A stretch of DNA of 64,000 bases, from assembly GCF_008033385.1 (NCBI RefSeq), contig NZ_VOGY01000009.1:62001-126000 (forward strand), in the 5' to 3' direction. A model generated the notes under the pieces. The model saw only the letters and a list, made by a program, of their open reading frames with translations. It made no database searches and was not told the DNA's origin. Within the stretch, counting starts at the first letter, position 1; every line of letters starts with the position of its first letter. The DNA is from Algibacter pacificus (GTDB lineage: Bacteria > Bacteroidota > Bacteroidia > Flavobacteriales > Flavobacteriaceae). A program made the translations under genes and the position numbers. Below, one piece after another: positions 61,877 to 63,788 of the stretch.

Positions 61877-62632
61877 ATGAATATAATCATTATTGAAGAC
61901 GAAAAACCATCGGCACGCCGCCTTCAGCGTCAGCTAAAAACTTTAAATTTAGAAACTCAAACCATGCTACATTCCGTAGAAGAATCGATCTCATGGTTTA
62001 AGGATAATCCGCATCCCGATTTAATATTTTTGGATATTCAATTAAGCGACGGCTTGTCTTTCGAAATCTTCGAAACTATCGAAATAAAAAGTGCCGTAAT
62101 TTTTACCACAGCTTACGATGAATATGCGCTGCAAGCCTTCAAACTCAATAGTATCGATTATTTATTAAAACCTATAGACGACGAAGATTTAGAAATTGCG
62201 GTAAAAAAATATCAAGAACGTGCACCACAAAAAAAAGGTGTAACCTTAGATTTCAACGATATTAAAAAACTATTGGTAAACCCTATAGATCGGGTTTATA
62301 AAAAGCGGTTTTCTGTAAAAGTAGGACAACACTTAAAACTGATTAATATAGACGAAATAGAATGTTTTTATAGCGAAAATAAAGGCACCTATGCCCATAC
62401 TACCGAAGGTAGAAATTACTTGTTAGACACCACGCTGGATCAGTTAGAAGATGAGCTGGAACCACAAACCTTCTTCCGTATCAACCGAAAATTCTATGTA
62501 AATATTAATGCCATAAAAGATATGGTGAGTTATACCAATTCGCGTTTGCAAATAAAGTTACAATCCTATCACGAGCATGAGGTTATTGTGGCTCGCGAAC
62601 GGGTTAAAGATTTTAAAAACTGGTTGGAGTAG
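61877..62632 (+). CDS. LytTR family response regulator
   Basis: 251 residues. Receiver domain 1-120: acid pair E7-D8, phospho-acceptor Asp53 in DLIFLDIQLSDG, and IDYLLKPIDD with the conserved Lys. DNA-binding LytTR domain from about residue 150 to 250 (FSVKVGQHLKLINIDEIECF, YLLDTTLDQLEDELEPQTFF, RINRKFYVNINAIKDMVSYT). Partner of the LytS-type kinase 0.6 kb upstream, separated by a 2TM gene and a structured element. Targets unknown. Confidence 0.94.
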   Translation: MNIIIIEDEKPSARRLQRQLKTLNLETQTMLHSVEESISWFKDNPHPDLIFLDIQLSDGLSFEIFETIEIKSAVIFTTAYDEYALQAFKLNSIDYLLKPIDDEDLEIAVKKYQERAPQKKGVTLDFNDIKKLLVNPIDRVYKKRFSVKVGQHLKLINIDEIECFYSENKGTYAHTTEGRNYLLDTTLDQLEDELEPQTFFRINRKFYVNINAIKDMVSYTNSRLQIKLQSYHEHEVIVARERVKDFKNWLE

Positions 62633-62768: not shown

Positions 62769-62776
62769 TACTTTTG
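62769..62776 (+). promoter_or_regulatory. -7 box of the Panacea antitoxin-toxin pair
   Basis: TACTTTTG, exact to TAnnTTTG, only four bases (CAAA) before the ATG at 62781; TTTAG at 62744-62748 is a weak -33 at about 20 bases. Same geometry as at 48500. Confidence 0.5.
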
Positions 62777-62780
62777 CAAA

Positions 62781-63269
62781 ATGAAAGCGACAGTATTAGG
62801 ACATATAATAACCGACTATGTAAATAGCAAAGGAGTTCCTGTATCACCAAAAAAATTACAGAAGCTTGTTTACTATGTAGAAGCTTGGCATTTAGTTCAT
62901 CTTAATTCTGAATTGATTGAAGAGAATTTTGAAGCTTGGGTTCACGGACCAGTTGTTCCTGAATTATATCAAGATTTAAAACAATTCGGATATAACGACA
63001 TTAAAGTACTTAATGACGAACTTGACTCTGCGGAAGAAAGAATCGAAAAAGTTGCAACAGAAAATGATTTAACTGAAAATCAACTTGAACTTATTTACTC
63101 TGTTCTAAATAAATATGGAACTTTAAGCTCATTTGAACTTGAAATGCTAACTCATAGTGAGAATCCTTGGATTGAAGCTAGAGAAGGTTTTCCACCTCAC
63201 GAAAGATGCAATAACGTAATTCCTAAAGATAGAATGAAAGAATTCTATTTAGCCCAATTATCTGCATAA
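62781..63269 (+). CDS. Panacea (SocA/DUF4065) domain antitoxin
   Basis: 162 residues. The N-terminal SPKKLQKLVYYVEAWHLVHL and the following FEAWVHGPVVPELYQDLKQF form the DUF4065/Panacea signature; the family serves as a promiscuous antitoxin neutralising toxins encoded next door (PanAT) and includes SocA, an antitoxin and proteolysis adaptor. The toxin gene candidate starts on the next base after the stop (TAAATG). Antitoxin-first order and own promoter fit a toxin-antitoxin operon. Confidence 0.85.
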   Translation: MKATVLGHIITDYVNSKGVPVSPKKLQKLVYYVEAWHLVHLNSELIEENFEAWVHGPVVPELYQDLKQFGYNDIKVLNDELDSAEERIEKVATENDLTENQLELIYSVLNKYGTLSSFELEMLTHSENPWIEAREGFPPHERCNNVIPKDRMKEFYLAQLSA

Positions 63270-63788
63270 ATGGCTAAAAAGGGTAAGAAGAATAAAGGAT
63301 TTGATATACCAGACCCAAAAAAGCAACTTGAAAATGCTATAAATTCATTATCCAAATATAAAGTCGGAGAACAAGGTATTCCATTTCATTCTGTAAAAAA
63401 TTTAAAACCATTTTTTGCATTTGACTATTTATCACTTGATAAAACTGATTTATGTTTTAATTGTAAAACTAACGACCGAGATGATTTATTAGGATTATTG
63501 GAAGGACTAAAAAAAGTTTCCTCATTTACTTACGAAAGTATGCGACTAACTAAAGCTTTGAGGTTTCATTCAATAGATTTATGGGATAAGGAAGTAAATT
63601 TACAGCCTAAAGATTTTTTAAAAATATTAGCACCTAGCTATCGTGGAATGACAGAAAATGAACTTCCTACTTTATATCAATTTGACTTACAATATACAAT
63701 CGAAGCTAGGGCAGTTGGATTTTTATATAAAGGTATTTTCTATTTAGTTTGGTATGATAGAAATCATATCATATACCCGAAAAAATAA
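63270..63788 (+). CDS. Putative toxin paired with the Panacea antitoxin
   Basis: 172 residues, basic N-terminus (MAKKGKKNKGF), no signal peptide. I do not know a named family, but the pattern SMRLTKALRFHSIDLWDKEV, LYQFDLQYTIEARAVGFLYK and the C-terminal FYLVWYDRNHIIYPKK (Trp-Tyr-Asp, Asn-His, Tyr-Pro) resembles hypothetical proteins ending VWLDPNHKLYP that occur near defence and toxin-antitoxin genes. Toxic activity is inferred only from the partner and spacing. Immediately downstream lies a decayed transposase. Confidence 0.7.
   Translation: MAKKGKKNKGFDIPDPKKQLENAINSLSKYKVGEQGIPFHSVKNLKPFFAFDYLSLDKTDLCFNCKTNDRDDLLGLLEGLKKVSSFTYESMRLTKALRFHSIDLWDKEVNLQPKDFLKILAPSYRGMTENELPTLYQFDLQYTIEARAVGFLYKGIFYLVWYDRNHIIYPKK

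Follow-up and report, generated by a model that had tools for sequence, protein, structure and literature searches.

Our results indicate that the window analysed here, a stretch of 64,000 nucleotides from Algibacter pacificus (contig NZ_VOGY01000009.1, positions 62,001 to 126,000), probably carries a PanAT-type cassette (toxin-antitoxin type II), in which a Panacea protein (PanA) blocks a RelE-fold, probably mRNA-cleaving toxin (PanT), and which was gained horizontally. A sequence-only reading of this DNA had proposed a toxin-antitoxin pair with a Panacea antitoxin in mobile surroundings, and this still appears to be the best reading, favoured by the pairing seen across the toxin superfamily, by the predicted fold of PanT and by the variable slot that the pair occupies. 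Given that the toxin seems to be a very distant RelE-type relative, the pair would be an outlier of a known kind (PanAT, NetFlax AarT) and not a new system.

The first gene of the pair matches the Panacea family PF13274 (E=2.4e-25, 90.1 bits for a cut-off of 25.7) and phrog_1281 (E=1.8e-40), and is the sole PF13274 match of its genome. Its score with the NCBIfam SocA model NF047745, 80.9 bits, is below the model cut-off of 190, and PADLOC gives no match to it at E<=1. The sequence-only reading placed a Panacea gene and a gene for 172 residues side by side with zero spacing, and both open reading frames are indeed present on the forward strand where it put them (Table 1); the ATG of PanT abuts the TAA of PanA, a spacing of 0 nucleotides that falls inside the 100-nucleotide criterion for PanAT partners. 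The −7 box which that reading attributed to PanA is also there as a string, TACTTTTG. Nevertheless, TANNTTTG was found 120 times in the window, with 116.7 expected from shuffled sequence, so that the string is not enriched and its role as a promoter is unproven. If TACTTTTG were the promoter, the mRNA of PanA would possibly be almost leaderless.

Table 1. Features of the window that bear on the PanA-PanT pair.
Feature	Position	Strand	Basis
PanA, stand-alone Panacea (DUF4065/SocA-like) putative antitoxin, 162 residues	62781..63269	+	PF13274, phrog_1281
PanT, putative toxin, 172 residues	63270..63788	+	phrog_8366, AF2 model, structure matches, conservation
Possible −7 promoter element, TACTTTTG	62769..62776	+	4 bases 5' of the PanA ATG
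LytTR response regulator gene, conserved left neighbour of the slot, outside the pair	61877..62632	+	5/5 same-genus genomes searched
Presumed truncated 3' end of an IS110-type transposase gene, repeated in the genome	63798..63934	−	genome repeats

The model of PanT obtained with AlphaFold (AF2; pLDDT 79.1, pTM 0.70) suggests a lysine-rich N-terminus, a predicted helix at residues 16-27 and a RelE/HigB-like domain at about 45-172. Comparison of this model with known structures, a check that the sequence-only reading had itself suggested, returned RelE/HigB-type matches, with a BECR fold predicted for the C-terminal ~125 residues, whereas a viral structure library gave no match at E<=0.001. PanT thus looks like a remote RelE-type relative with the RelE/HigB/YafQ (BECR) fold, which narrows the chemistry of the Panacea partner that had been left open. 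The positions conserved in the family are kept in PanT (H100, R147, G150, D163, H166 and P170), and of these D163, H166, R147 and H100 are candidate catalytic residues. The likeness to the mRNA interferases RelE, HigB, YafQ and YoeB lies in the predicted fold; PanT differs from them in having no Pfam family match, in its extra N-terminal ~40 residues and in the motif W-x-D-x-x-H of its last strand. The 13 Pfam families of BECR toxins listed in PMC11980606 match neither PanT (E<=1) nor 10 of its relatives. Kinship with MqsR was considered and found to be without support, there being no Pfam match and no MqsR chain among the structure matches listed.

In sequence, PanT is isolated. The sequence-only reading could not name its family, and this stands for Pfam, NCBIfam and PADLOC, where zero matches were obtained at E<=1, but not for PHROGs, in which a single profile of unknown function, phrog_8366, matches residues 34-170 over positions 22-139 of 140 (E=1e-7; the library supplies no cut-off). 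Used as the sole query, PanT found only itself in 395 genomes of its order (394 others without a relative), no close relative in viral contigs, plasmids and phages, and nothing better than E=0.05 in the PDB, where profile A10 gave one match, to a designed protein, at E=1.1. Viral scans with profile A7, or with the toxin of locus L014 as sole query, returned none. The phrog_8366 profile has matches in 19/395 genomes of the phylum, a tally that still includes two genomes (G626 and G643, E 8e-4) whose frames read like RecQ helicases and were dropped as chance. Profile A2 (7 rows) has matches in at least 8/395 genomes of the class and 4/397 of the family; these are lower bounds, since A2 missed the toxin of L090 (G1117), which was reached through its Panacea gene. 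The window's genome is included in each of the three counts. Additional relatives came from viral contigs, genome contigs (13 loci) and plasmids.

Several comparisons tie PanT to these proteins. BLAST against the small set of gathered toxins gave E values of 6.5e-9 (L079) and 2.3e-8 (L038), and single profile-profile comparisons of the window set A4 gave 3.4e-6 with A8 and 1.8e-10 with A3. phrog_8366 matches 10/10 relatives, which had themselves been retrieved by that profile; none of the 10 exceeds a Pfam cut-off (best E 6.5e-4). The NCBIfam 'MAG6450 family' model, NF046006, matches 14/21 rows of alignment A13, in which PanT is one row, and the relative L046 scores 40.0 on it, equal to the model cut-off of 40 bits. 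PanT therefore resembles phrog_8366, whose profile it matches, and differs from the MAG6450 family, which it does not match at E<=1. A maximum-likelihood tree was built from 41 toxins, leaving aside L022 and L024, two rows that were cut and five near-copies. PanT stands by itself there, on a branch of length 1.85 within 32 Panacea-paired rows (branch 100/99), and no smaller starred group contains it.

The partner genes of the superfamily speak for a toxin-antitoxin pair. Of 58 distinct toxins, 47 are encoded behind a Panacea gene, 7 behind an AAA ATPase gene and 4 behind neither, namely a split gene (L003), one at a contig edge (L089), L022 and L024. The 58 proteins derive from 77 toxin rows, after window repeats had been removed, and include PanT and eight fragments of <105 residues; 25 of them went into the toxin profile, and 16 of the neighbouring proteins into the Panacea profile. 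The loci were retrieved by toxin and not by Panacea, and the partner mix therefore mirrors which toxin branches were searched. The gap between the Panacea and toxin genes ranges from −32 to +11 bases in 39/47 pairs and from 54 to 215 in the other 8. The sequence-only reading was to fall if the second protein usually occurred without a Panacea partner; at superfamily level the figure of 47/58 does not refute it, PanT's own branch being itself alone in the 395 genomes. Seen from the Panacea side, PF13274 has 26 matches in 19/397 genomes of the family, and this toxin type is found in the window and at 4 of the 25 other matches (L090, L098, L103 and L112; no Panacea frame was picked at L101 and L104 in the neighbour tally). 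The toxin is thus one of several Panacea partners, as published.

By analogy with RelE/HigB and AarT, PanT would most likely stop translation by binding and cutting RNA, the target perhaps being mRNA at the ribosome. PanA, being translated first, would bind the toxin directly, as in published PanAT pairs, and its loss, whether through loss of the element or through phage infection, may set the toxin free.

In Kurata 2022 (PMC8832971), nine PanAT pairs were validated, with complex formation, eight PanTs were without toxicity in E. coli, and the toxins of the data set are sorted into 88 clusters. The pair in the window resembles these pairs in gene order and spacing, with a stand-alone Panacea gene first, the partner directly 3' and a spacing far below 100 nucleotides. 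Ernits 2023 (PMC10440598) describes the toxin AarT (node D3) of Acinetobacter guerrae, whose partner is an AAA ATPase (D29); AarT inhibits 35S-Met incorporation, and its RNase-like fold was without HHpred hits. Here the likeness is one of arrangement, given that toxin L018 has relatives on Acinetobacter and Klebsiella plasmids (tblastn E 1e-13 and 3e-8) whose genes follow one for an ATP-binding protein; the window partner, however, is Panacea, whereas that of AarT is an ATPase. We think that D3 was reached directly from Panacea and equals the PanT superfamily, because the low-numbered nodes D2, D6, D8, D9 and D11 are named with Panacea in that paper; D5 has an ImmA partner in the same work, which weakens this use of the node numbering.

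In all three ATPase partners tested, AbiLi is the best PADLOC match (E 1.5e-88, 5.5e-71 and 3.6e-72). Within the ATPase-associated clade, however, two toxins are paired with Panacea, one from a viral contig (L062, 3318-4348) and one from a genome of the same family (L090, 1402-1893 and the following gene, outside the 58 counted), and this is a partner swap. One starred set of 9 tree rows mixes 7 ATPase and 2 Panacea partners. An approximately unbiased (AU) test did not reject the ATPase-paired toxins as one group (p 0.244), so the tree does not fix the number of swaps. The closest Panacea relative of PanA is that of L062 (47% identity), yet the L062 toxin sits in the other clade; the histories of antitoxin and toxin therefore need not agree.

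A third setting is provided by NsnC, which we take to be a Menshen protein. L022 (1492-2331, reverse strand) and L024 (961-1800, forward strand) encode proteins of 279 residues in which the toxin profile matches the C-terminal part, at about 184-275. L024 is NsnC by PADLOC (E 5.2e-85) and is preceded by an AAA_21/AAA_15/DUF3696 ATPase gene. Moreover, an NsnC model has matches to 14/21 rows of A13; the one to L037 covers model positions 167-280. NsnC thus appears to share the toxin domain with the PanT superfamily in its C-terminal part, but there the domain is fused to an N-terminal part of ~180 residues behind another ATPase, and PanT itself has no PADLOC match. A limited literature search on Menshen, NsnC and RelE, including the accessible part of PMC10952713, found no published statement of a RelE-like part in NsnC. 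We tentatively propose, at somewhat below even chances, that one RelE-fold effector is swappable under three controllers (Panacea, ATPases of the AbiLi type and the ATPase next to NsnC, of which it would be the C-terminal part), with PanT as the only protein found on a separate and deeply divergent branch, possibly with a different RNA target. If so, Menshen would be an RNase-armed system whose effector could be put to the same kinds of test as toxin-antitoxin pairs. The results suggest that the effector occurs both next to AbiLi-type ATPases and within NsnC, so that defence systems may exchange controllers round one RNase-like weapon, and this shared effector is the wider point worth following. 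For the toxin family, which is common behind Panacea antitoxins and has no Pfam match here, the present analysis offers a probable fold and a chemistry that can be tested; the window contributes a single divergent toxin-antitoxin cassette, probably of horizontal origin.

These links raise the question of whether the pair serves phage defence by abortive infection, with Panacea as sensor and the RelE-like protein as effector, and is thus more than mere addiction. We regard this as possible but rather doubtful. The AbiLi-type partners, the NsnC assignment of L024 and the presence of relatives in viral contigs argue for it, and PMC10440598 puts Panacea forward as a sensor. On the other hand, neither PanA nor PanT has a PADLOC match at E<=1, and AarT of A. 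guerrae showed no defence in the BASEL screen. The impression, in the sequence-only reading, that the second protein resembles proteins found near defence genes is borne out for some relatives. In the window, no defence gene was recognised among the reading frames listed near the pair (not all were scanned). The window's genome has two AbiLi-like ATPases, and no neighbour of either matches the toxin profile (best E 0.26 or worse); a neighbour of one, with 221 residues, resembles RloB.

The predicted fold also accommodates a toxin that is not an RNase, for instance one that inhibits gyrase as ParE does, and PanA would still neutralise it. ParE-type chains (6n90, 6x0a, 5cw7 and 5czf) share the fold and are among the structure matches, and the fold covers both RNase and gyrase-inhibitor activities according to PMC11980606. 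Even so, we consider a toxin without RNase activity improbable and an mRNA-cleaving PanT the preferred reading.

The toxin-antitoxin cassette was probably gained horizontally: the variability of its slot is observed, and the direction of change is inferred. In same-genus genomes, the gene 3' of the response regulator is lpxD-like after 83 base pairs (G1434), of helix-turn-helix type (G1211), or another gene (G1376 and G1435), the names being our own reading; the pair and the neighbouring transposase remnant therefore sit in a variable slot, which the pair occupies in 1/5 of these genomes. The cassette would have entered between the response-regulator gene and an lpxD-like gene. Base composition gives no sign of horizontal origin, 71/315 windows having a G+C content at or below the 30.4% of the cassette. 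The remnant, in which the sequence-only reading saw an IS110-type element, is truly repeated, with 135-137 base pairs that recur at five further sites in the genome (L116, L117 twice, L118 and L119), 95.6-100% identical; its peptide has 10 matches in the genome, 6 of which, the window copy included, are >90% identical. We take the remnant to be the 3' end of an IS110-type transposase gene, as read from the longer copy L118. That the pair is itself a decayed or captured remnant with no present function would agree with this adjoining debris, with the occupancy of 1/5 and with the lack of a close relative for a selection test, but it is hardly likely, as both reading frames are intact and exactly adjoining and PanT retains the conserved positions of its family.

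Other Panacea-toxin pairs are found on the move. The L014-type pair is identical or near-identical in genera that include Bacteroides, Hoylesella and Butyricimonas, and a Parabacteroides plasmid carries it too, so that pairs of this kind are mobile. An identical or near-identical pair in several Bacteroidales genera (L048-L055, L058 and L027) points to recent spread. At L027 the pair lies beside mob genes. The other copies of the transposase remnant share 207-248 base pairs with the L118 copy.

The surroundings of Panacea genes vary. One genome of the same family, G1263, has 7 Panacea matches (L093, L108 and L110-L114), of which L112 alone is paired with this toxin type. At L096, in the same-genus genome G1376, the Panacea gene follows a restriction-enzyme-like gene and has no recognisable toxin partner of the PanT family. 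At L026, on plasmid pL29 of Vibrio alginolyticus, a Panacea gene is followed by a split toxin of the PanT family, ~1.4 kb before a gene annotated as a retron Eco8 family effector; a gene for a reverse transcriptase lies beyond it. In L030, L032, L035 and L036, a gene of ~205-212 residues, similar by eye and cut at the locus edge in L030, lies directly upstream of Panacea, which gives a three-gene arrangement.
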